Of a stretch of 59,864 nt of DNA, positions 45,143 through 59,610 are shown one piece after another (within the stretch, counting starts at the first letter, position 1; each line of letters begins with the position of its first letter). The notes beneath the pieces are model-generated. The model worked only from the letters and a program-made list of their open reading frames with translations. It had not been told where the DNA came from and searched no databases. Origin of the DNA: an uncultured Clostridium sp. GTDB lineage: Bacteria > Bacillota_I > Bacilli_A > RF39 > UBA660. The translations under genes were made by a program, and so were the position numbers. Where the stretch lies: the NCBI GenBank assembly GCA_946541575.1, contig CAMNJQ010000047.1, positions 1-59,864 of the forward strand, read 5' to 3'.

Positions 45143-47635
45143 GTGAATTTTATAAAAAAATTATTCGATCATGAATATAAAGAATTAAAAAAGTTTGGAC
45201 TTTTGGCAGATAAGGTAGAAGCTCTTGATGAAGAATATCAAAAATTAACTGATGATGAGCTAAAAGCAAAAACTGAACAATTTAAAGAAAGATTAAAAAA
45301 TGGTGAGACACTGGATGATATATTACCAGAAGCTTTTGCTACTGTAAGAGAAGCAGCTTTTAGAGTTATTGGACTAAAACCATTTAGAGTTCAAATAATT
45401 GGTGGTATTGCATTACATTACGGAAATATAGCTGAAATGAAAACAGGTGAAGGTAAAACATTAGTAGCTACAATGCCTGCTTATTTAAATGCATTAACTG
45501 GTGATGGAGTACATATTATAACAGTTAATGAGTATCTTGCAGATCGTGATAGTAACTGGATGGGAAGTATTCATAGATTTCTTGGATTAACTGTAGGAAC
45601 TAACTTAAGAAGTTTATCTCCAAGTGAGAAAAAAGAACAATATGAATGTGATATATTATATTCTACAAATAATGAATTAGGTTTTGACTACTTAAGAGAT
45701 AACATGGTAGTTAAAAAAGAAAATAGAGTTCAACGTGGATTAAATTATGTAATAATAGATGAAGCGGATTCAGTATTAATAGATGAAGCAAGAACTCCAT
45801 TAATAATATCTGGTGGTGAACTAAAAAGTGCATCACTTTATACAGATGCAGATTACTTCGTTAAGAACTTAAAAGAAGAAGAAGACTACCTTTATGATGA
45901 AAAAACAAAAGGAGTAACATTAACAGAAGAAGGAGTAAAAAAAGCCGAAAAGCATTTCAAGGTAGATAACTTATATGATATTGAACAAACTACATTAGTA
46001 CATCATATTAACCAAGCATTAAAAGCAAACTATAGTATGAGAAAAGATGTTGATTATGTTGTTCAAGATGGTGAAATAATAATTGTTGATCCATTTACAG
46101 GAAGATTAATGAAAGGAAGAGCTTGGAGTGAAGGACTTCATCAAGCAGTAGAAGCAAAAGAAGGAGTTAAAATAAATCAAGAAACTAAGACTCTTGCAAC
46201 AATTACATTTCAAAATTTATTTAGAATGTATAAGAAAATATCTGGTATGACTGGAACTGCAAAAACAGAAGAAGAAGAATTTAGAAATATATACAATATG
46301 TATGTTATTTGTATTCCAACAAATAAAGAAGTAATAAGAATAGATAAACCTGATTTAATATATTCTACAAAAGCTGGAAAATATAAAGCATTAATTGATG
46401 CAATAGAAGAAAAACATAAAATAGGACAACCAGTACTAGTAGGTACAATAGCAATTGAAACAAACGAATTAATTGATAATCTATTAAATAAAAGAAAAAT
46501 ACCTCATGAAGTATTAAATGCAAAAAACCATGCAAGAGAAGCTGAAATAATTGCTAAAGCTGGAGAAAAAGGAGCTGTTACAATAGCAACAAATATGGCT
46601 GGTCGTGGTACTGACATTAAACTTGGAGAGGGAGTAAAAGAACTTGGAGGACTTTGCGTATTCGGAACAGAACGTCATGAATCACGTCGTATAGATAACC
46701 AGTTAAGAGGACGTTCAGGAAGACAAGGAGATCCAGGATATACACAATTCTTTGTATCAACTGAAGATGAATTAATGGTTAGATTCGGAACAGATAGAAT
46801 AAAAAGAATAATGCAAACAGCAGGATTTAGAGAAGATCAACCAATTCAAAGTAAGATGATTTCAAAATCATTAACGACTGCACAAGCAAGAGTTGAAGGA
46901 AATAACTTTGATATAAGAAAACAATTACTTCAATATGATGACATTATGAATCAACAAAGAGAAATAATGTATGAAAGAAGAAATGAAATATTAGATAATG
47001 AGTCTATTCATAATACAGTATTAGGTATTATGAAAAATTATATTACTAATTTAGTTAATTCTCACTTAGAATATGAAACAAAATTAAGTAAAGATGATAT
47101 TAATGAAATAGTAGGATTCGTAAATGAAAAACTATTAAAAGATGATATAGATAAAGAAATATTATATTCTAAGAGTCCTGAAGAAATAATAGATTTAATT
47201 TATAATCATTTAGTTGAAGAATACGAAGAGAAAATAAAAGAAGTTCCAAAGGAAATAAGTGACGAATTTGAAAAAGTAATAACATTAAATATTATAGATA
47301 AATACTGGACTGAACATATTAATACAATGTCACATTTAAGAGAGGGAATTCACTTAAGAAGTTATGGACAAATTGATCCATTAACTGCATATTCTAAAGA
47401 AGGATTTGATTTGTTCGATGAAATGAACAATAGAATTGATAAAGAAGTAACAACATTCTTAATGAGAGCAGAAGTAAAACAAAATATAGAAAGAAAAGAA
47501 GTAACAAAAAACAAAATAACTAACGATGGAAAAGATGCAGTAAAAACACCATCAAAGAAGAAAGAAAAAGTTGGAAGAAATGATCCATGTCCATGTGGCA
47601 GTGGTAAAAAATATAAGCAATGTTGTGGTAAATAA
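45143..47635 (+). CDS. secA: protein translocase ATPase SecA
   Basis: 830 residues from GTG 45143 with GGAGATGG upstream. Drives Sec export. Walker A MKTGEGKTLVA (about 100), DEADSVLIDEARTPL, GMTGTAKTE, IATNMAGRGTDI and the HESRRIDNQLRGRSGRQGDPG motif. It ends with a SEC-C zinc tail, DPCPCGSGKKYKQCCGK. The last 45 bp recur downstream and form an integration site, so the tail itself was probably supplied by the adjacent mobile element. The usual downstream gene prfB is not present within the window. Confidence 0.97.
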   Translation: MNFIKKLFDHEYKELKKFGLLADKVEALDEEYQKLTDDELKAKTEQFKERLKNGETLDDILPEAFATVREAAFRVIGLKPFRVQIIGGIALHYGNIAEMKTGEGKTLVATMPAYLNALTGDGVHIITVNEYLADRDSNWMGSIHRFLGLTVGTNLRSLSPSEKKEQYECDILYSTNNELGFDYLRDNMVVKKENRVQRGLNYVIIDEADSVLIDEARTPLIISGGELKSASLYTDADYFVKNLKEEEDYLYDEKTKGVTLTEEGVKKAEKHFKVDNLYDIEQTTLVHHINQALKANYSMRKDVDYVVQDGEIIIVDPFTGRLMKGRAWSEGLHQAVEAKEGVKINQETKTLATITFQNLFRMYKKISGMTGTAKTEEEEFRNIYNMYVICIPTNKEVIRIDKPDLIYSTKAGKYKALIDAIEEKHKIGQPVLVGTIAIETNELIDNLLNKRKIPHEVLNAKNHAREAEIIAKAGEKGAVTIATNMAGRGTDIKLGEGVKELGGLCVFGTERHESRRIDNQLRGRSGRQGDPGYTQFFVSTEDELMVRFGTDRIKRIMQTAGFREDQPIQSKMISKSLTTAQARVEGNNFDIRKQLLQYDDIMNQQREIMYERRNEILDNESIHNTVLGIMKNYITNLVNSHLEYETKLSKDDINEIVGFVNEKLLKDDIDKEILYSKSPEEIIDLIYNHLVEEYEEKIKEVPKEISDEFEKVITLNIIDKYWTEHINTMSHLREGIHLRSYGQIDPLTAYSKEGFDLFDEMNNRIDKEVTTFLMRAEVKQNIERKEVTKNKITNDGKDAVKTPSKKKEKVGRNDPCPCGSGKKYKQCCGK
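47591..47635 (+). repeat. secA tail copy 1 (attachment site, within secA)
   Basis: Encodes PCGSGKKYKQCCGK and stop. 40 of 45 bases match copy 2 at 58081. This is the secA-proximal junction of the element array. Confidence 0.88.
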
Positions 47636-47678
47636 CTCGTAAAGTCCCATAAATAAAGGGAAAACACGAGTTTTTCTT
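47634..47678 (+). terminator. secA terminator
   Basis: AACTCGT and ACGAGTT pair at the base, with CCC/GGG inside, followed by TTTCTTTTTC. The AACTCG start is shared with the sequence behind copy 3 (59609). Confidence 0.7.
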
Positions 47679-49359: not shown

Positions 49360-49374
49360 AATGTCAATTTTCTA

Positions 49375-49422
49375 GGTAGAAGTGGTAAAAATGCTAAAAA
49401 GTGTAATGCTAAAATATGCCTT
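49375..49422 (+). repeat. secA tail copy 4, degenerate (attachment-site remnant)
   Basis: Reads GRSGKNAKKCNAK in the frame that matches GSGKKYKQCCGK of SecA, and is followed by TAAGTCCCA where copy 1 is followed by AAAGTCCCA. The match is partial but keeps both the coding pattern and the flank, and the arm repeat comes at the expected distance (49478). Confidence 0.55.
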
Positions 49423-49528: not shown

Positions 49529-50650
49529 TTATTTCTTTAAGTTATTAATAACATCCATAGTTTCATTTAATGCACCTTTAAATAGATGTGAATAGGTTTT
49601 AAGAGTCTCTGTGGTATTACTATGTCCCAAGAAAGATGAAACAACAGTAATTGGAGCTTTATTATTAACAAGAAGAGATGCACATGAATGTCTGAAATCG
49701 TGTAGCCTTATTTCTTTAACACCAGCTTTATTTGCAATTTCTCCTTTTCTTCGTTGAGCCTGTGCATAGACTAAAGGTCTGATACCAAAGTCATTACCAA
49801 AGACATAGAACTTTTTATCAAAGTTTTTGAATTTAGAAACTTCATCATAGTATTGTTTTAAATCATTTAATAATTCATCAGCAATAGGAATATTTCTTAT
49901 GCTCGAATCAGTTTTAGGATTACATACATAGAAGTTAGAAGAGTAATTATCAATACTTAATACTTGCTTATTAATAGATAGCCTTTTATTATTAAAATCA
50001 ATGTCTTCCCAAGTTAATCCTCTAGCTTCTCCAATTCTTAATCCACAATAATATAAAGCCTCCCATAAACACTTAAATTGTAGCTCATCTTCAGCAGATA
50101 AGAATTTCATAAATTCATCATATTCATAGATTTGTCTTTCTGATTTCTTTTCTTCGGGATTCTTGAACTTTTCCATCAGTAATATTACTTGATTAAAATT
50201 AAAGTTATATCTTTTTATACCAAAGTGAAGAACAGCCTTTAAAACTTTTAAAATGTCATTTTTAGAAACATCTTTCATATCAGGCAGACTATTCATATAC
50301 TTCTTCCAATTCTCAAAGTACATAATATTGAAATCAACACATTTTATATTATATAAAGGAACTAAATATTTTCCCCTGTATTTATAGCCAACTTTAGTGC
50401 TGATTCTAACCTTATCATCTTGATATTCTAAAAAAGCATTCCATAAGTCTTCAATAGTCATTTTAATAGGAACATTAATATTTTCTTTTAACTTATTTAA
50501 GTATTCCAGTTCAGCTTCCTTTGCTTCAGCTCGTGTTGCATATTTCTTGCTATTGTATTGTTTTATTGTGTTGAATTCATCCCTATATGGAACTCTAAAG
50601 AACCAACACTTCCCATCTTTAGTAGGAGTTTTAGCTTTATTTACTGACAT
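49529..50650 (-). CDS. int: tyrosine-recombinase integrase
   Basis: 373 residues from ATG 50650 (AAAGGA 8 nt before). N-terminal AP2-like arm-binding region (about 5-55, with FFRVPYRDEFN and a KKYATRAEAKEAE helix), SAM-like core-binding domain (about 60-155), then the catalytic domain: Arg in CGLRIGEARGLTW, HDFRHSCAS (HxxR), LGHSNTTETLKTYSH with His and the nucleophile Tyr. The gene reads toward the secA-proximal end. Presumed target is the secA 3' end. It should bind the TTTAGATCA arm repeats at both ends of the element. Confidence 0.95.
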   Translation of the reverse strand: MSVNKAKTPTKDGKCWFFRVPYRDEFNTIKQYNSKKYATRAEAKEAELEYLNKLKENINVPIKMTIEDLWNAFLEYQDDKVRISTKVGYKYRGKYLVPLYNIKCVDFNIMYFENWKKYMNSLPDMKDVSKNDILKVLKAVLHFGIKRYNFNFNQVILLMEKFKNPEEKKSERQIYEYDEFMKFLSAEDELQFKCLWEALYYCGLRIGEARGLTWEDIDFNNKRLSINKQVLSIDNYSSNFYVCNPKTDSSIRNIPIADELLNDLKQYYDEVSKFKNFDKKFYVFGNDFGIRPLVYAQAQRRKGEIANKAGVKEIRLHDFRHSCASLLVNNKAPITVVSSFLGHSNTTETLKTYSHLFKGALNETMDVINNLKK

Positions 50651-50665
50651 TATAACCATCCTTTC

Positions 50666-50694
50666 TTGTTAAAAATAGAAAAAACTGCTATAAT
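50666..50694 (+). promoter_or_regulatory. plus-strand promoter opposite the integrase leader
   Basis: TTGTTA (50666-50671), 17-bp spacer, extended -10 TGCTATAAT (TATAAT 50689-50694). There is no ORF behind it; transcription would end at the terminator at 50777-50805. The segment CTATAATGT (50688-50696) has an inverted copy ACATTATAG at 50713-50721, which can act as a -10 for the integrase on the other strand. Confidence 0.6.
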
Positions 50695-50742
50695 GTAAAT
50701 GGAAATCCAAAAACATTATAGTTTCTATAATTAATATTTTTA

Positions 50743-50770
50743 TTCTTGGTCGAATTTAAATATACGATTT
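50743..50770 (-). promoter_or_regulatory. 28-bp control module, copy upstream of int
   Basis: Read on the minus strand it gives AAATCGTATATTTAAATT, C, GACCAAGAA. 27 of 28 bases match the copy at 51843-51870 in the opposite orientation. It lies about 95 bp before int and, on the minus strand, is followed by TATAGA and TATAAT -10 candidates. Confidence 0.7.
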
Positions 50771-50776
50771 CTAGGT

Positions 50777-50805
50777 CTGTTGTTCCAGCAACAGGTCTTT
50801 TTTTT
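50777..50805 (+). terminator. plus-strand intrinsic terminator
   Basis: CTGTTG, TTCCAG loop, CAACAG, then GTCTTTTTTTTT. It points away from int and ends right at the 3' end of the repressor gene, so it terminates the candidate small RNA. Confidence 0.8.
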
Positions 50806-50806
50806 G

Positions 50807-51487
50807 TTAATCAAAATCTCTGATGTGTCTTTTTATTTTTCCTAATACTTTGTATTTTTTCTTAAAATCAGTTATTGATAAATATTTAGTTACATCCTTA
50901 CTTTCATTTGCAGGATTAAGAGGAATAATAGCGATGGAATCATCGATTGTTTTGATTCTTCTAAAGTATGTTTTAGCACTATTATTTTTAAGTAATTGTA
51001 TTATATAGTCTCCATCTCCTGAAATGGTGTCTTTTTTGGTAACCACTACAATATCATTTTTTAAATATTCAGGACTCATTGAATCATCATTTAATATTAA
51101 TCCCATAAATAATTCATTTTCGCTATCCCATTGATAAGGTACTGTGACATTGTCAAGAAATTTAAGATCATCAGGAACAGAATGAAGTTTATTTATTTCA
51201 TATAAGGAGTAAAAATTAAATATACCTTTAGGTTCATGTTCTTCCCTATAAGCATTCATACATGTTTCATAATCAGGTTCTTCTTCTAATAGACCGTTTA
51301 AAGTAACACAGAAGAAATCGGCAATTTCTTTTATGTATTCCATTTTAGGATATGTTCTACCTTTTGCCCAATCGCAGAAAGTAGTATATTTAACACCAAT
51401 ACCATTAGCAACATCTTCTCTAGAAAATCCTTGCATTTTTAGTAAGTTTTTAATATTGTTTGCCAAAATATCTTTGCTATTTGTCAC
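50807..51487 (-). CDS. CI-like repressor with S24 peptidase domain
   Basis: 226 residues from GTG 51487 (AGAGG 8 nt before). N-terminal XRE helix-turn-helix (about 8-62, with FSREDVANGIGVKYTTF), then a LexA/CI-type S24 domain: Ser in LNDDSMSPEYLKND and Lys in NSAKTYFRRI. It should keep the element silent and be inactivated by RecA during SOS, though a cleavage site is not obvious. Faces the Cro-like gene across the switch region. Confidence 0.9.
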   Translation of the reverse strand: MTNSKDILANNIKNLLKMQGFSREDVANGIGVKYTTFCDWAKGRTYPKMEYIKEIADFFCVTLNGLLEEEPDYETCMNAYREEHEPKGIFNFYSLYEINKLHSVPDDLKFLDNVTVPYQWDSENELFMGLILNDDSMSPEYLKNDIVVVTKKDTISGDGDYIIQLLKNNSAKTYFRRIKTIDDSIAIIPLNPANESKDVTKYLSITDFKKKYKVLGKIKRHIRDFD

Positions 51488-51506
51488 TTTTATCACCTCT
51501 GATACA

Positions 51507-51535
51507 ATCTTACAATATCTCGTAATTTATGTCAA
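51507..51535 (-). promoter_or_regulatory. repressor promoter
   Basis: On the minus strand TTGACA (51535-51530), 17-bp spacer, TAAGAT (51512-51507). The repeated half-sites ATACAAT, ACAATAT and, across the gap, ATATTGT and ATTGTAT near 51594-51602 are possible repressor operators. Confidence 0.65.
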
Positions 51536-51576
51536 GTAAAAAATACATAAAATTATGCAAATATCATAAAAAGGTA

Positions 51577-51605
51577 TTTACAAAAGAAAAGGAATATTGT
51601 ATTAT
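51577..51605 (+). promoter_or_regulatory. promoter of the Cro-like gene
   Basis: TTTACA (51577-51582), 17-bp spacer, TATTAT (51600-51605), facing the repressor promoter about 45 bp away. Confidence 0.65.
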
Positions 51606-51633
51606 TGATTTAAGTTAGAAAGGAGGTAAACAC

Positions 51634-51831
51634 ATGAAGATAACATTAAAAGCATTACGAATCAATTCGAAACTAACACTGGAAGAAGCTTCGAAAAAGA
51701 TTGGTATTAGCAGGGAAACATTAAGAAGCTATGAAACTTTTAAAACTGCTCCTGATCTAAAAATGTTACCAAAAATATTAAAGGTATATAATGCAGATAT
51801 TAATGATGTTAAGTTTGAAGATGAGAAATAG
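51634..51831 (+). CDS. Cro-like XRE regulator
   Basis: 65 residues, essentially one helix-turn-helix (LTLEEASKKIGISRETLRSYE at about 14-34, HTH core). AAAGGAGG before ATG. Opposed to the repressor, as in lambdoid-type switches. Confidence 0.85.
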   Translation: MKITLKALRINSKLTLEEASKKIGISRETLRSYETFKTAPDLKMLPKILKVYNADINDVKFEDEK

Positions 51832-51842
51832 TAATTACGAAA

Positions 51843-51889
51843 AAATCGTATATTTAAATTTGACCAAGAAGTAAAAATAATTATAGAAA
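51843..51889 (+). promoter_or_regulatory. 28-bp control module and promoter of the replication operon
   Basis: AAATCGTATATTTAAATT, T, GACCAAGAA (51843-51870) with TTGACC (51860-51865) as -35, 16-bp spacer and TATAGA (51882-51887). It is the inverted partner of the copy before int. The A+T-rich part in front of the -35 is a likely operator. Confidence 0.7.
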
Positions 51890-51904
51890 GAGAGGAATTT
51901 CCAA

Positions 51905-52153
51905 ATGGGAAAAAGAAGAAAAGTTTTAACCAAAAACGAAATAAAAGATATAGCTCAATATCAATGGGCTAGTATCAAAGATATAATGGACATCGGTGCA
52001 ATTGGTAAAAACAATGCTCGAATAGTCCTAAATGAAATAATGAATGTATATTATCAAGATAGAGAAAGAATAAAAAATGGATTAGTTCCCATGAGTATGG
52101 TACTTGATTATTTCAATATCAGTATTGAATCCTCAGGTACAACAAATGAGTAA
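51905..52153 (+). CDS. small DNA-binding-like protein (excisionase-type candidate)
   Basis: 82 residues with GAGAGG before ATG. A basic N terminus, then an HTH-like region IKDIMDIGAIGKNNARIVLNEI that resembles DUF3173/excisionase-like folds of mobile elements; the match is weak. First gene behind the control module. Its last 8 bp overlap the initiator gene. Confidence 0.55.
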   Translation: MGKRRKVLTKNEIKDIAQYQWASIKDIMDIGAIGKNNARIVLNEIMNVYYQDRERIKNGLVPMSMVLDYFNISIESSGTTNE

Positions 52154-53078
52154 ATATAATAAAGAAAAAATGTTTTTCATTCAAACACCTATAAAGTTTT
52201 GGTATAGGCAAGATATTATATGGCTTCAGAATCAGCCTGATGGATATCAAATACTGACTTTATATAATAAACTTATGGGATTAACTGCAAATATGGATGG
52301 ATATTTATTAAAACAATTTGGAGATGTAAAAGAGCCATATACTAATGAAGAAATAGCTAGAATAACAATGCATGATTTATCAATAGTAGAAAAAGGTATT
52401 AATCTTTTAGAAAAGGTCGGATTATTAGAAAAAATTGATAATGCCTATTTTATTGAAGAAGCATTAAATATGACAAATCAAACAATTGGTGCTAGAGAGA
52501 AACAGGAACAAAGAAGAAACAAAGAGGACAAATGTCTGTCTGAATGTCCACCTGAATGTCTGCCAAATTGTCCACCATATACATATAAAGAATTAAATAC
52601 AAATAAAAAAACAAAAATAAATAAAAATAAAAAGAAAGAAAAAACAGAAATAGAAAAACAATATAGTATTGATGAAACTACAGGAGAAGTTATTGAAACT
52701 GAAATAGTAACTAAAAATGAGATGATTTATAAGAATATAATTGATTATCTCAATTTAAGATTAGGAACTAATTATAAAAGTACTTCTATAAAAACAAGAG
52801 CACTAATAGATGCTAGATTAAACGAGGGATTTACTGAAGAAGATTTTAAAATTGTAATAGATAAGAAATATTATAAATGGCATGATACTGACATGGAACA
52901 ATATTTAAGACCTGAAACACTATTTAGTAATAAGTTTGAAAGTTATTTAAATCAAAGAATAAGTGAAGAGAAAAAAACATTAAAGGATATTTCTATGAAA
53001 GAAATAGATGAAGCACTTGCTAGAGAAAGAGAACAAAAAGGGAAAGAGGCTAACGATGACAACATTAGAATTTATTAG
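52146..53078 (+). CDS. phage replisome organizer (replication initiator)
   Basis: 310 residues from ATG 52146, which overlaps the previous stop by 8 bp. N-terminal phage replisome-organizer domain (about 5-115; FWYRQDIIWLQNQPDGYQI, winged helix) and a C-terminal conserved phage domain (about 190-265; DYLNLRLGTNYKSTS...FSNKFESYL, Phg_2220_C type). Between them lies CLSECPPECLPNCPP, an odd Cys/Pro run that is best explained by iteron DNA, followed by a Lys-rich linker from AT-rich DNA. It should bind its own gene to open the origin. Confidence 0.85.
   Translation: MSKYNKEKMFFIQTPIKFWYRQDIIWLQNQPDGYQILTLYNKLMGLTANMDGYLLKQFGDVKEPYTNEEIARITMHDLSIVEKGINLLEKVGLLEKIDNAYFIEEALNMTNQTIGAREKQEQRRNKEDKCLSECPPECLPNCPPYTYKELNTNKKTKINKNKKKEKTEIEKQYSIDETTGEVIETEIVTKNEMIYKNIIDYLNLRLGTNYKSTSIKTRALIDARLNEGFTEEDFKIVIDKKYYKWHDTDMEQYLRPETLFSNKFESYLNQRISEEKKTLKDISMKEIDEALAREREQKGKEANDDNIRIY
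52533..52680 (+). other. putative replication origin: four 12-bp iterons and AT-rich DNA
   Basis: Four contiguous units: TGTCTGTCTGAA, TGTCCACCTGAA, TGTCTGCCAAAT, TGTCCACCATAT (52533-52580), followed by about 100 bp of almost pure A/T (52581-52680) that could melt. Location inside the initiator gene is typical of phages of Gram-positive hosts. Confidence 0.65.
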
Positions 53079-53490
53079 TGGTATGAAGAAGTTAGGTAGT
53101 TTTTATTTTAAAGAATTAACAAATGAACAAATATCATTATGGTATGAAATGTTCCAAGATGTATCGGTAGATGTATTTAATCAAGCCATAAAAGAAATAT
53201 CTAGAGAAAACAAATTTATGCCAAATGCTAATGAATTATTTAATAAATGCTCACAGTTAAACAAAAACAACTTACTTGAATTAATTAATTTTATGTATGA
53301 TGATGGGTATTTTCATCGTGGAATAGAAAGACTATCTGATGAACAAGCTAGGAGAAATCTAGATAAAACTATGATGTGGTTAGATAAAGGAATAATACCA
53401 TCGTTTCTAAAAGAAGATATGCAAGAGTATATGAAGAAATATAAGCAATCACAAATACAGGATCAAGAAAGGCTAAAGATAGAATGTTAA
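53056..53490 (+). CDS. helicase-loader-like phage protein
   Basis: 144 residues from ATG 53056, with AAAGAGG before and 23 bp of overlap with the initiator. The N-terminal part (LTNEQISLWYEMFQDVSVDVFNQAIKEI...FMPNANELFNKCSQ) matches the pattern of phage replicative-helicase loader/inhibitor proteins (G39P type). It would bring host DnaB to the element origin, since no helicase gene is carried. Confidence 0.7.
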   Translation: MTTLEFISGMKKLGSFYFKELTNEQISLWYEMFQDVSVDVFNQAIKEISRENKFMPNANELFNKCSQLNKNNLLELINFMYDDGYFHRGIERLSDEQARRNLDKTMMWLDKGIIPSFLKEDMQEYMKKYKQSQIQDQERLKIEC

Positions 53491-53837
53491 GGTCATGTGC
53501 TGTATGTGGTGGAATACACCAAGAAGATCAGATGTGTAAGAGAAAATACAAGAAAGATAGCAGAGCATATCATTTTAGAAATAGCAACAAATGGATACTA
53601 AAAAGAGAAGAAATAAAGAAGAGAGATAAATACTTATGCCAAGTATGTTTAAAGCATGGTAGATTTATTTATCAAGATGTTCAGGTACACCATATCATAC
53701 CAATAAATAAAGATTATGATAAAAGACTTGATAGCAATAATTTAATAACCCTCTGCACACTACATCACAAGGATGCAGAAAGAGGATTTATAAGTGTTGA
53801 AGAATTACATGGTTTAATAGACTCCCCCCGAGGGTAG
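53484..53837 (+). CDS. HNH endonuclease
   Basis: 117 residues. HNH motif: VHHIIPINKDY, NLITLCTLHHKDAE, with zinc pairs CQVC and the C..H of the end; another CAVC at the N terminus. In many phages an HNH gene of this size lies just before the small terminase and the cos site; here no terminase follows. Overlaps the loader gene by 7 bp. Confidence 0.9.
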   Translation: MLRSCAVCGGIHQEDQMCKRKYKKDSRAYHFRNSNKWILKREEIKKRDKYLCQVCLKHGRFIYQDVQVHHIIPINKDYDKRLDSNNLITLCTLHHKDAERGFISVEELHGLIDSPRG

Positions 53838-53922
53838 ATGACTAAAAAATAATCATTTTTTCACACCCACAGCCCACCTATATTCACACAATTATTAGTT
53901 TTCCGTGAGTTTTTTGGAAAAC
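53820..53922. other. GC-rich patch and hairpins behind the HNH gene (possible cos-like region)
   Basis: CTCCCCCCGAGGG at the end of the HNH gene and CACCCACAGCCCACC (53862-53876) are unusually GC-rich for this window. Between them AAAAAAT, AATC, ATTTTTT (53844-53861) is a terminator-like hairpin. GTTTTCC (53898) and GGAAAAC (53916) form another hairpin. Use as a packaging site is speculative. Confidence 0.4.
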
Positions 53923-53988
53923 AATATTGTGATAAGTAATATAAATTTAATTATTTATGTTAAAATAAAGTGCAGGAGGTTTTATAGT

Positions 53989-54588
53989 ATGACAGATAAA
54001 GACATTGCAATATTATTTGCTAATAAAATAAAGGAAAAAATTGATAGAGCATTATCATTATGCAATATGCCATATGATGTTGATAGTAATGAAGAAAAAT
54101 TCGAATTAATTAAATCACTATCATCATTAGTATCTGAATTATTGGATAAGGATAATCTAAAAGAAAAATTACTTAATTTAGCTAACACCTCAACTGTTAA
54201 TGGTAATGATAATGAAATTAAAATTGAAACATTTGACTTTATTAGAAATATATTAATTCATTTTCCTATTTTTGAATCATGGGATGAGATATATATTTCA
54301 AAAGAATTATTAGGTTGGAATAAGCCTTATAATGGAAGTATAGTAAAGTATTTTAAAAAGAATAGTGGTAAAACATTTACATACAGAATTTTCTTAAATG
54401 AGTATGATGAATGGGTTGAAAAACATACAATAACAGTAACAATTCCTGAATTAAAGGATAACACAAAAATATTCTTAAAAGATATTTTATCGTTAGATAA
54501 TGCAATATGGACATTCGGTATAATAGACTATTATCTAAAGGATTTAGGTTTAACTATTAATCCTTATGGTTTTACTGTTTCATTATAA
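53989..54588 (+). CDS. unknown protein of element A
   Basis: 199 residues from ATG 53989, chosen because GCAGGAGG precedes it; the frame is open to 53905. No membrane segment. N-terminal helical part (about 1-75), then a mixed part with FFKK..TFTYRIFLNEYDEWVEKH. No motif recognised. Lies between the HNH gene and the restriction cassette. Confidence 0.65.
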   Translation: MTDKDIAILFANKIKEKIDRALSLCNMPYDVDSNEEKFELIKSLSSLVSELLDKDNLKEKLLNLANTSTVNGNDNEIKIETFDFIRNILIHFPIFESWDEIYISKELLGWNKPYNGSIVKYFKKNSGKTFTYRIFLNEYDEWVEKHTITVTIPELKDNTKIFLKDILSLDNAIWTFGIIDYYLKDLGLTINPYGFTVSL

Positions 54589-54606
54589 AAAAAGCATTAG
54601 ATAAAA

Positions 54607-54930
54607 CTAATACTCAATGATTTTGAAGTCCAAAGGATCTTCACTAATTATCTCTAAAGCATACTTTAATCGTAGTAATTTAATAACTTCAGCTTTAGTC
54701 TTTTCATAGTTATCACTTATAAGATTAAACATATCGGAAGCAGAATTAAAATGTTGTAAAAAAGTGGCTTCCCACATAGCATTACGATAAAAAGAATTAG
54801 CTAAATAATAAGCGATAACTTCAGGCATAATATATTCTTCAACAAAAGTGTGATAGTTGTCATAAAAAGGATTAATAACCTTTTCACATTCTTCATCACT
54901 TATATCTTCATCGGTAGATTTTCTTAACAT
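54607..54930 (-). CDS. unknown small protein of element A
   Basis: 107 residues from ATG 54930 (GGAGG 5 nt before). Acidic, Tyr- and Glu-rich, helix-forming; cytoplasmic. Its promoter region shares the 13-bp motif AGAGTGATTAATA (minus-strand reading of 54946-54958) with the unknown gene on the other side of the restriction cassette. Ends 18 bp from the converging gene. Confidence 0.6.
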   Translation of the reverse strand: MLRKSTDEDISDEECEKVINPFYDNYHTFVEEYIMPEVIAYYLANSFYRNAMWEATFLQHFNSASDMFNLISDNYEKTKAEVIKLLRLKYALEIISEDPLDFKIIEY

Positions 54931-54945
54931 AGACACCTCCGTATG

Positions 54946-54976
54946 TATTAATCACTCTAAATTGAAAATAATGCAA
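54946..54976 (-). promoter_or_regulatory. promoter with shared 13-bp motif (left of the restriction cassette)
   Basis: Minus-strand TTGCAT (54976-54971), 18-bp spacer, ATTAAT inside AGAGTGATTAATA. Same motif and same spacing as at 57840-57870. Confidence 0.6.
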
Positions 54977-55032
54977 GTTATTATGAAAAATAAATAAATA
55001 ATCTGACTTTTGTAGGAAAAATGCTGGTTTGA

Positions 55033-55041
55033 TGATATAAT
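55033..55041 (+). promoter_or_regulatory. extended -10 of the dpnM operon
   Basis: TGATATAAT (TATAAT at 55036-55041); a clear -35 is not visible. GGAGG at 55061 and ATG 55073 follow. Confidence 0.55.
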
Positions 55042-55072
55042 AAATATGTACTCAACTTGGAGGTAGATAATA

Positions 55073-55927
55073 ATGATAAAAGGAAAACCATTCGTCAAAT
55101 GGGCTGGTGGTAAAAGACAAATAATTGATAAGCTATTAAAATATGCACCTGATGAGTTTAATACTTACTATGAGCCATTTGTAGGTGGTGGAGCTTTATT
55201 ATTTGAATTATCACCAAAGAAAGCCGTAATAAACGATTACAATAAAGAATTAATAAATGTTTATAATGTTTTATGTAATGAAGAAAAATTTAAAAAGATG
55301 TGTAATGTTCTAAATAGTTATGAAACAAATCATAGCGAAGAATTCTATTATGAAATAAGAAATAAAGATAGAAATAAAGCATCATTTAATAGACTATCAG
55401 ATTATACAAGAGCAGGAAGAACAATTTATTTGAATAAAGCTTGTTTTAATGGTTTGTATAGAGTAAATAGCAAGAATGAATTTAATGTTCCATTCGGTAA
55501 GAAATTAAAAGTAAATACTTACGAGGGTGGAAATCTAATAACAGTTAGCAATTATTTAACAATGAATGATGTTAAGATATTAAGTGTAGATTTTGAAGAA
55601 GCAGTAAAAGATGCTAAAAAAGGTGATTTCATTTATTTCGATCCACCATATGATTCTGATACAACAACATTTAATAGTTATACAGAAGATGGGTTCGGAA
55701 AAGAAGAACAAAAAAGACTTGCAAGAGTTTATAAAGAACTTTCTGATAGAGGTTGTTATGTAATGCTTTCAAATCACAATACTTCATTAATCAAAGAATT
55801 ATATAAAGACTTTAACATTCATGTTATTGAAGCTAAAAGAAATATAAATGCAAATGGAAAAAAGAGAGGTAAAGTAGAAGAAGTAATTATAACAAATTAC
55901 GAAAATAAAAGAGGATTTGAAGAATAA
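55073..55927 (+). CDS. dpnM: DpnM-type GATC adenine methyltransferase (Dam family)
   Basis: 284 residues. N6-adenine methyltransferase for double-stranded GATC. Motif I as FVKWAGGKRQI, FVGGGALLFEL for SAM binding, catalytic DPPYDS, and the alpha-type motif order of Dam. First gene of a dpnM-dpnA-dpnII operon in the same order as the pneumococcal DpnII system. Protects host and element GATC sites, including those in the arm repeats. Confidence 0.93.
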   Translation: MIKGKPFVKWAGGKRQIIDKLLKYAPDEFNTYYEPFVGGGALLFELSPKKAVINDYNKELINVYNVLCNEEKFKKMCNVLNSYETNHSEEFYYEIRNKDRNKASFNRLSDYTRAGRTIYLNKACFNGLYRVNSKNEFNVPFGKKLKVNTYEGGNLITVSNYLTMNDVKILSVDFEEAVKDAKKGDFIYFDPPYDSDTTTFNSYTEDGFGKEEQKRLARVYKELSDRGCYVMLSNHNTSLIKELYKDFNIHVIEAKRNINANGKKRGKVEEVIITNYENKRGFEE

Positions 55928-55959
55928 ACACAGTATAATATAAATAGGAGGTGCATTAC

Positions 55960-56727
55960 ATGAGTAAGGATTATTACTACGAAGATGATGATTTTAAATT
56001 ACTACATGGCGATGCCCTTTTATTATTGAAAAAAATGAAGCCACAAAGTATTGATATGATATTTGCAGATCCCCCATACTTCCTATCGGGAGATGGAATA
56101 ACTTGTAGTGCTGGTAAAATGGTATCAGTTAAAAAAGGCGAATGGGATGAGAAGATAGGCATCAAAGAAAAGCATAACTTTAATAAGAAATGGATAAGAG
56201 CCTGTAAGCGAGTTTTAAAAGATGATGGAACAATATGGATAAGTGGAACAATGCATAATATTTATTCAATAGGAATGGCACTCGAAGAAGAGGGATTTAA
56301 GGTCATTAATAACATCACATGGAAGAAATTAAACCCTCCACCTAATATTAGTTGTCGAGCCTTCGTTCACTCAACAGAAACGATATTATGGGCTAAAAAA
56401 GACATAAAAAAAGCTAAACATAAATTTAACTATGATGTGATGAAAGAATTAAATGATGGAAAACAAATGAAAGATGTATGGGAAACATCATTGACTAAAC
56501 CGAGTGAAAAGAAATGTGGCAAACATCCTACTCAAAAACCAATAGCACTCCTAGAAAAGATAATACTTGCATCAACAGATGAAAATGATTTAATACTTGA
56601 TCCATTCAATGGTAGTGGAACAACAGGAATCGTAGCAAGTAGACTAAAAAGAAGATACATAGGGATTGATAAAGAGAAAGAATATTTAGATTTGACTATA
56701 AGAAGAAAGGAATGTGATTCTAAATGA
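55960..56727 (+). CDS. dpnA: DpnA-type adenine methyltransferase
   Basis: 255 residues from ATG 55960 (AGGAGG 8 nt before; GTG 55951 is inside that site). Beta-type order: catalytic DPPYFLSGDG near the N terminus and DPFNGSGTTGIVASRL near the C terminus. In the pneumococcus DpnA also methylates single-stranded DNA and protects incoming DNA during transformation. Overlaps dpnII by 4 bp. Confidence 0.92.
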   Translation: MSKDYYYEDDDFKLLHGDALLLLKKMKPQSIDMIFADPPYFLSGDGITCSAGKMVSVKKGEWDEKIGIKEKHNFNKKWIRACKRVLKDDGTIWISGTMHNIYSIGMALEEEGFKVINNITWKKLNPPPNISCRAFVHSTETILWAKKDIKKAKHKFNYDVMKELNDGKQMKDVWETSLTKPSEKKCGKHPTQKPIALLEKIILASTDENDLILDPFNGSGTTGIVASRLKRRYIGIDKEKEYLDLTIRRKECDSK

Positions 56728-57578
56728 AAAGAGATTTTAATGAATGGTTAAGTAAATTTAAGTCAAGCATATCTGATTATACTTACTATGTTGATTTTGA
56801 AAAGATTTATAGAAATGTAGATAAGCTAAAAGTTGAACTTAATATTTTAAATTCACTAATAGGCAGTAAGGATATTGAGAATGATTTCCAAACAATACTA
56901 ATCAAGTATCCTGAAACTTTAGAATGTATACCATTATTGTTAGCAGTTCGTTCAAGAGAAATATTTATTAAAGATGAAATGAATGAGTACTTATTTGACT
57001 TCAGAAAGATGGTTTATTCTGTTCCTGAATACATAGATTTTATGAGAAAGAGTGGTCTTTTTGATTTACTACAAAATCATATAATTAATAACCTATATGA
57101 CTATGTATTAGGAATTGAAGTCGGATTAGATTCTAATGGTAGAAAGAATCGTGGTGGACATCTAATGGAGAATCTTGTTGAAGAATACATTAAGAAAGCA
57201 GGATACAAAAAAGATGTTAATTACTTTAAAGAAATGTATTTAGCAGATATAGAAAAGAAATGGAATTTAGATTTATCAGCCATGTCGGGAAACAATGTCT
57301 CAACTAAAAGATTTGACTTTGTAATTAAAACAGATAAGCAAGTTTATGTTATTGAAACTAACTTCTATTCAGGTGGTGGTTCTAAATTAAATGAAACTGC
57401 TAGAAGCTATAAAATGTTAGCAAGTGAATCAAAGAAAGTAAATGGAGTAACATTCATATGGTTTACTGATGGATTAGGATGGATAAGTGCAAGAAAGAAT
57501 CTTGAAGAAACATTTAATGAAATGGATACAATATACAACATAGATGATTTAGAGCATGGAATAATTGAAACATTATAA
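56724..57578 (+). CDS. dpnII: DpnII-family restriction endonuclease (GATC)
   Basis: 284 residues. Cuts unmethylated GATC. The family-typical C-terminal part KRFDFVIKTDKQVYVIETNFYSGGGSK holds the D...ExN catalytic core (Asp, Glu-Thr-Asn), and GRKNRGGHLMENLVE is also conserved. ATGA overlap with dpnA couples nuclease to methylase synthesis. A defence cargo of element A. Confidence 0.93.
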   Translation: MKRDFNEWLSKFKSSISDYTYYVDFEKIYRNVDKLKVELNILNSLIGSKDIENDFQTILIKYPETLECIPLLLAVRSREIFIKDEMNEYLFDFRKMVYSVPEYIDFMRKSGLFDLLQNHIINNLYDYVLGIEVGLDSNGRKNRGGHLMENLVEEYIKKAGYKKDVNYFKEMYLADIEKKWNLDLSAMSGNNVSTKRFDFVIKTDKQVYVIETNFYSGGGSKLNETARSYKMLASESKKVNGVTFIWFTDGLGWISARKNLEETFNEMDTIYNIDDLEHGIIETL

Positions 57579-58080: not shown

Positions 58081-58125
58081 CCATGTGGCAGTGGTAAGAA
58101 ATATAAACAATGTCATGGTAAGTAA
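58081..58125 (+). repeat. secA tail copy 2 (attachment site)
   Basis: Encodes PCGSGKKYKQCHGK and stop, with no secA sequence in front. 40/45 identical to copy 1 and 41/45 to copy 3. Right end of element A and left end of element B. Confidence 0.88.
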
Positions 58126-59565: not shown

Positions 59566-59610
59566 CCGTGTGGCAGTGGCAAGAAATATAAACAATGTCA
59601 TTGTAAATAA
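59566..59610 (+). repeat. secA tail copy 3 (attachment site)
   Basis: Encodes PCGSGKKYKQCHCK and stop; 41/45 identical to copy 2. It is followed by CTCGCAAAG, which matches CTCGTAAAG behind copy 1, so the terminator flank is duplicated too. Confidence 0.85.

Follow-up and report, generated by a model that had tools for sequence, protein, structure and literature searches.

A small integrated phage-like element in the 59,864-nucleotide stretch of DNA analysed here (the window) very probably carries its origin of replication inside its own initiator gene. Judging by sequence comparison, the winged helix of the initiator would bind four iterons, an A-rich stretch next to them would melt and a helicase would be loaded, and a Cys/Pro run in the protein would be a linker by-product. 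This reading draws on the observed repeats and their spacing, the A+T-rich stretch, the domain borders, modelled disorder and the frame-independence of the repeat word in relatives; within it we infer binding, melting and helicase loading. The putative origin function is well supported by comparison with homologues and with the established in-gene origins of TP901-1, Tuc2009, SPP1, lambda and pSK41. That the Cys/Pro run would be a by-product of a DNA signal is also well supported, by the homologues.

The initiator gene and its iteron array

The phage replisome-organizer (initiator) gene lies at 52146–53078 on the forward strand, starts with an ATG at 52146 and encodes 310 amino acids (protein P0001). 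It was delineated from its open reading frame and two Pfam domains that both score above the curated cut-offs. Phage_rep_org_N (PF09681; E 2.6e-14, 53.7 bits against a cut-off of 23.3) spans 52179–52526 on the forward strand and is predicted to form a winged helix, the likely reader of the iterons. The C-terminal domain Phg_2220_C (PF09524; E 9e-29, 99.7 bits against 27) covers 52737–52952, forward strand (residues 197–268), and probably contacts the helicase-loading machinery. In a PHROGs search, the protein matches phrog_1163 and the replication initiation family phrog_428. The gene next to it (53059–53490, forward strand) is a candidate for an SPP1 G39P-like helicase loader. Its match to PF11417 (E 3e-4, 21.6 bits) falls just below the Pfam cut-off of 22, the helicase loader family phrog_2289 is matched at E 1e-3, and by these matches its product is probably such a loader.

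Between the two domains lie four 8-bp TGTC cores with a period of exactly 12 bp, all on the forward strand and in one reading frame: iteron 1 at 52533–52540 (TGTCTGTC), iteron 2 at 52545–52552 (TGTCCACC), iteron 3 at 52557–52564 (TGTCTGCC) and iteron 4 at 52569–52576 (TGTCCACC). Tandem Repeats Finder places the array at 52531–52576, and its four-block 12-bp score of 50 exceeds the maxima reached by 300 Markov shuffles (40) and 300 codon shuffles (43) of the gene. The first-pass annotation, which had reported repeats from 52533 onward, was right about their position, copy number and period. Its consensus TGTCYRCC, however, covers three of the four iterons, the exception being copy 1, and TGTCYRYC is needed to cover all four. 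As it had also stated, the array (52533–52576) translates into the Cys/Pro run CLSECPPECLPNCPP, and this run separates the N-terminal from the C-terminal domain, with PF09681 ending at about 52526 and PF09524 starting at about 52737. Structure at the iterons is not above that of shuffled sequences (z 0.9), and no stem-loop was found there.

Directly behind the array, the stretch at 52577–52676 (forward strand), a putative DNA unwinding element, encodes a Lys/Asn-rich disordered linker. Its 69 A, 18 T, 8 G and 5 C on the coding strand amount to 87% A+T, so that the earlier description of about 100 bp as nearly pure A/T was worded too strongly, although the stretch is indeed the A+T maximum of the gene. 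It also belongs to the 1% of 100-bp stretches richest in A+T, in a window that is itself 74% A+T. Both features of an in-gene origin, direct repeats between two domains and an A+T-rich stretch adjoining them, are present.

The same repeats could also be sites at which the initiator mainly represses or times its own operon, rather than a start site. Sites within a gene could form a roadblock, and the proposed replication role is argued from sequence and from analogy. However, the array begins about 390 bp into the gene and has the A+T maximum directly behind it, a layout that matches established in-gene origins (PMC8965321, PMC6316719, PMC7466680, PMC5703833), and we regard operon control as very unlikely to be the main role.

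The repeat word is kept across reading frames

Because 12 is a multiple of 3, the four iterons of the window all stand in one frame, and its sequence by itself does not tell a DNA signal apart from a repeated peptide. The Cys/Pro run might itself be functional, as a metal-binding or redox peptide, with the DNA repeat following from a repeated tetrapeptide. Four cysteines at four-residue spacing would suit such a role, as would the C-P-P found in the same frame in the window and in three relatives (L281, L008 and L004). Of these, L281 belongs to another uncultured Bacillales genome, and its initiator shares 92% protein identity with that of the window. At its first iteron, TGTCCACC replaces the window's TGTCTGTC, and iterons 2–4 are the same; Pro-Pro stands in place of Leu-Ser, yet TGTCYRYC is retained. 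The more distant N-domain relatives L008 and L004 have little other linker sequence in common with the window. L008 keeps TGTCCACC twice at 12 bp, and L004 keeps TTGTCCACC and TTGTCCAAC at 24 bp (TTGTCCAMC). The C-terminal domain of L008 is DnaB_2, unlike that of the window.

Compared over 52146–53078, L281 and the window are nearly identical for the first 400 bp or so; differences start just before the iterons and accumulate toward the C-terminus, a pattern suggestive of a recombination junction within the linker.

For a wider comparison, viral and genome contigs were scanned with alignments of the N- and C-domains, and together with genome searches this yielded 250 genes that are mutually less than 85% identical in nucleotides. 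Most came from alignments A2, A3 and A5; A4 contributed five loci, and a single-protein scan of viral contigs one weak locus. A repeated word, defined as an 8-mer with at least three G/C that occurs at least three times in a chain, is present in 70 of the 250 initiator genes, a lower bound since the exact-8-mer screen misses degenerate iterons, those of the window among them. The same criterion picks out 12 of 444 neighbouring ORFs (Fisher p 1e-22, indicative only, as are all p-values of this survey, because the sequences are related by descent) and 2 of 5000 codon-shuffled genes. Spacings peak at 11 bp (25), 12 bp (51) and 22–24 bp (35), that is, at one or two helical turns. Downstream of the arrays A+T rises to 0.70, from a mean of 0.63 over the gene (p 7e-8), and in 33 of the 70 repeat-bearing genes the copies occupy more than one reading frame.

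The core word TGTCC is itself enriched about tenfold in the linker. In the 129 genes whose N-domains match alignments A3/A4, its density reaches 2.43/kb in linkers, while the remainder of these genes has 0.22/kb and shuffled linkers have 0.33; its copies are spread over the three frames as 26:25:29. L140 carries ATGTCCTC five times at 11 bp, translated as NVL-MSS-ECP-NVL-MSS; the corresponding runs read NVP-LSS-ECP-NVA in L194 and IVPQLSPACPQ in L127. In these three genes and in L134, TGTCC occurs in all three frames within one gene, and L125 likewise changes frame.

The comparison of homologues that the first-pass annotation had called for thus gives the reverse of what a metal site predicts: the 11/12-bp spacing of TGTCC is kept, and the encoded residues change with the frame. 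Its proposal that the run is best explained by an origin role of the DNA is in this way supported by the recurrence of TGTCC in all three frames. A peptide motif could not survive such frame changes and a DNA site could, which argues strongly against a Cys metal site; the frequent 11-bp spacing, moreover, cannot hold a peptide register. A metal-binding Cys motif is hence strongly disfavoured by the frame changes in relatives, and a functional peptide of any kind appears highly improbable.

TGTCC also follows the type of N-terminal domain. When the genes were sorted more strictly by N-domain than in the 129-gene set, 21 of 58 with the window's type had at least two copies, as did 1 of 190 with a different N-domain (p 4e-14), and the C-domain made no difference; about two thirds of the genes of the window's type, however, lack two exact copies, so the word is not universal. 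Since the word goes with the N-terminal rather than the C-terminal domain, the winged helix is its probable reader.

In linkers of the WIK-type organizers (e.g. L074, L077, L080 and L101), the word recurring at 12 bp is GTAAAACT or GTAAACCT rather than TGTCC, mostly within a single frame. This is likely another iteron word, belonging to the WIK-type N-domain subfamily.

The iterons differ from host DnaA boxes

We also considered whether the repeats could be DnaA boxes of the host, with DnaA instead of the encoded protein firing the origin. TTGTCCACC differs from the DnaA box TTATCCACA at two positions. All the iterons, however, carry a G as third and a C as ninth base. Intergenic TTATCCACA boxes and close variants are found in the host dnaA region, whose sole exact WTGTCYRCC match lies inside dnaA. 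Relatives have TGTCC in common but not the CACA end, and the word goes with a phage N-domain type. The repeats therefore do not match the TTATCCACA-type boxes used in the host dnaA region, and a DnaA-fired origin is extremely unlikely.

Predicted structure of the initiator

We utilised AlphaFold2 with a 22-sequence alignment to model the initiator, which revealed confident N- and C-domains (N-domain pLDDT about 90) joined by a disordered middle. pLDDT falls below 50 at residues 132–134 and 136–172. The Cys run (residues 129–143) is largely below 50, which in the model would also argue against a functional peptide. A Foldseek search with the whole model returned no match below E 0.001, and useful matches were obtained only for the winged-helix part on realignment; among PDB sequences, no relative of the initiator was found at E 1. 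In VIA-align comparisons, the N-domain aligns with winged helices, including those in the N-domains of RepA initiators from plasmids (90 residues aligned; 4pql, Z 8.7, rmsd 3.3; 4pt7, Z 8.3; the Rep-DNA complex 5kbj, Z 8.3), with Z values that lie barely above the usual background of small winged helices and so indicate a resemblance to RepA, not proof of descent. We take these three entries to be pSK41/pTZ2162-type RepA structures.

Comparison with known in-gene origins

The arrangement is reminiscent of several phage and plasmid origins. The organizers of the lactococcal phages TP901-1 and Tuc2009 bind repeats in their own genes, and the origin lies within the organizer gene (PMC8965321); the GenBank note on Tuc2009 Rep (orf16) reads 'contains origin of replication'. 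The window resembles both in having a direct-repeat origin candidate inside an organizer gene. It also resembles r1t ORF11, where GGAACC occurs four times in the linker, followed by an A+T-rich stretch, and where the C-terminus is likewise Phg_2220_C. However, the words of the three lactococcal organizers (GGAACC, CAACCAA) differ from that of the window, their N-domains have no PF09681 match, and the C-domains of TP901-1 and Tuc2009 are of other types.

In initiators of the pSK41-type RepA_N family, a winged-helix N-domain reads four Rep boxes that lie midway along rep, and the linker encoded by the origin is dispensable (PMC5703833). The window shares with them four in-gene repeats and an N-domain fold resemblance (Z 8.7 over 90 residues). 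However, a search of Pfam profiles at E 0.01 gave no PF06970 (RepA_N) match for its initiator; its C-domain also differs, and its setting is prophage-like, unlike the plasmid setting of the pSK41 type. In lambda O/ori-lambda and the Stx phages, the middle of the initiator gene holds four iterons and, after them, an A+T-rich tract (PMC7466680), the same order as in the window. Lambda iterons, however, are inverted repeats (PMC7466680), and the window's initiator matches no lambda O family in Pfam or PHROGs. In SPP1, oriL lies inside organizer gene 38, with direct repeats, an A+T-rich unwinding element and the gp39 loader (PMC6316719). The window likewise has direct repeats, an A+T-rich stretch and a downstream ORF with a weak G39P match. 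Unlike in SPP1, no second, oriR-like array was found in the window, where TGTCYRYC occurs 8 times against 5.7 expected and the four copies outside the array are scattered singles; nor was a helicase gene recognised.

The element and its probable integration site

The element measures 8.7 kb and encodes, within 49529–57578, an integrase, an S24 repressor, a Cro-like HTH protein, the organizer, the loader, an HNH nuclease and a DpnII-like restriction-modification set (methylases and nuclease). No phage structural genes were recognised in it. This gene content fits two kinds of element, a phage satellite (PICI-like) and a decayed prophage. The element may have decayed, which would weigh against the origin reading. 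Copies of the secA 3' end (SEC-C motif, PCGSGKKYKQC) lie at 47585–47644, 58081–58125 and 59566–59610, with a degenerate copy at 49372–49416, and each copy retains the reading frame to the stop. These copies suggest integration at the secA 3' end, where the 8.7-kb element was probably inserted; they are the probable attachment cores of elements integrated there successively.

Further copies of the secA 3' end, 1.2–1.4 kb apart, are present on another contig of the same genome (C2, L380). In a genome of the same genus (G001, L381), two integrases follow secA, and another 3'-end copy lies 14 kb on. Elsewhere in the window, a surface-protein-like gene (454–2910) contains a long array of Cys-containing repeats of about 108 bp (1374–2617).

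Proposed mechanism and implications

In the mechanism that we propose, the winged helix of the N-domain would bind the four TGTC iterons, which are spaced at about one helical turn. Phased in this way, they would line up several initiator protomers on one face of the DNA, and the resulting complex would stress the adjoining A-rich stretch until it melts. The replicative helicase of the host would then be brought in by the C-terminal domain and the G39P-like protein that the adjacent gene encodes. On this view, origin DNA is translated into the Cys/Pro run and the Lys/Asn-rich tail, which would serve only as a flexible linker. Comparison among relatives supports iteron binding as the first step; melting and helicase loading are proposed by analogy.

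Phages and plasmids with an origin inside the initiator gene have been described before, and the window adds another probable case. In the literature searched, we found no description of a frame-independent TGTCC word tied to this type of N-domain. We lean towards the view that the N-domain and the iterons behind it form a portable specificity cassette in phage organizers of Firmicutes. The winged-helix type would dictate the word, in any frame, with TGTCC belonging to the window's type and different words to the others, and the cassettes would be recombined onto different C-terminal helicase-loading domains, so that origin and reader travel together. TGTCC is a candidate for a recognition word across the Phage_rep_org_N family, and annotators should not label repeated Cys/Pro or Met/Ser runs in organizer proteins as peptide motifs. 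Such words would offer a sequence-only route to the replication origins of many uncultured Firmicutes prophages and satellites.
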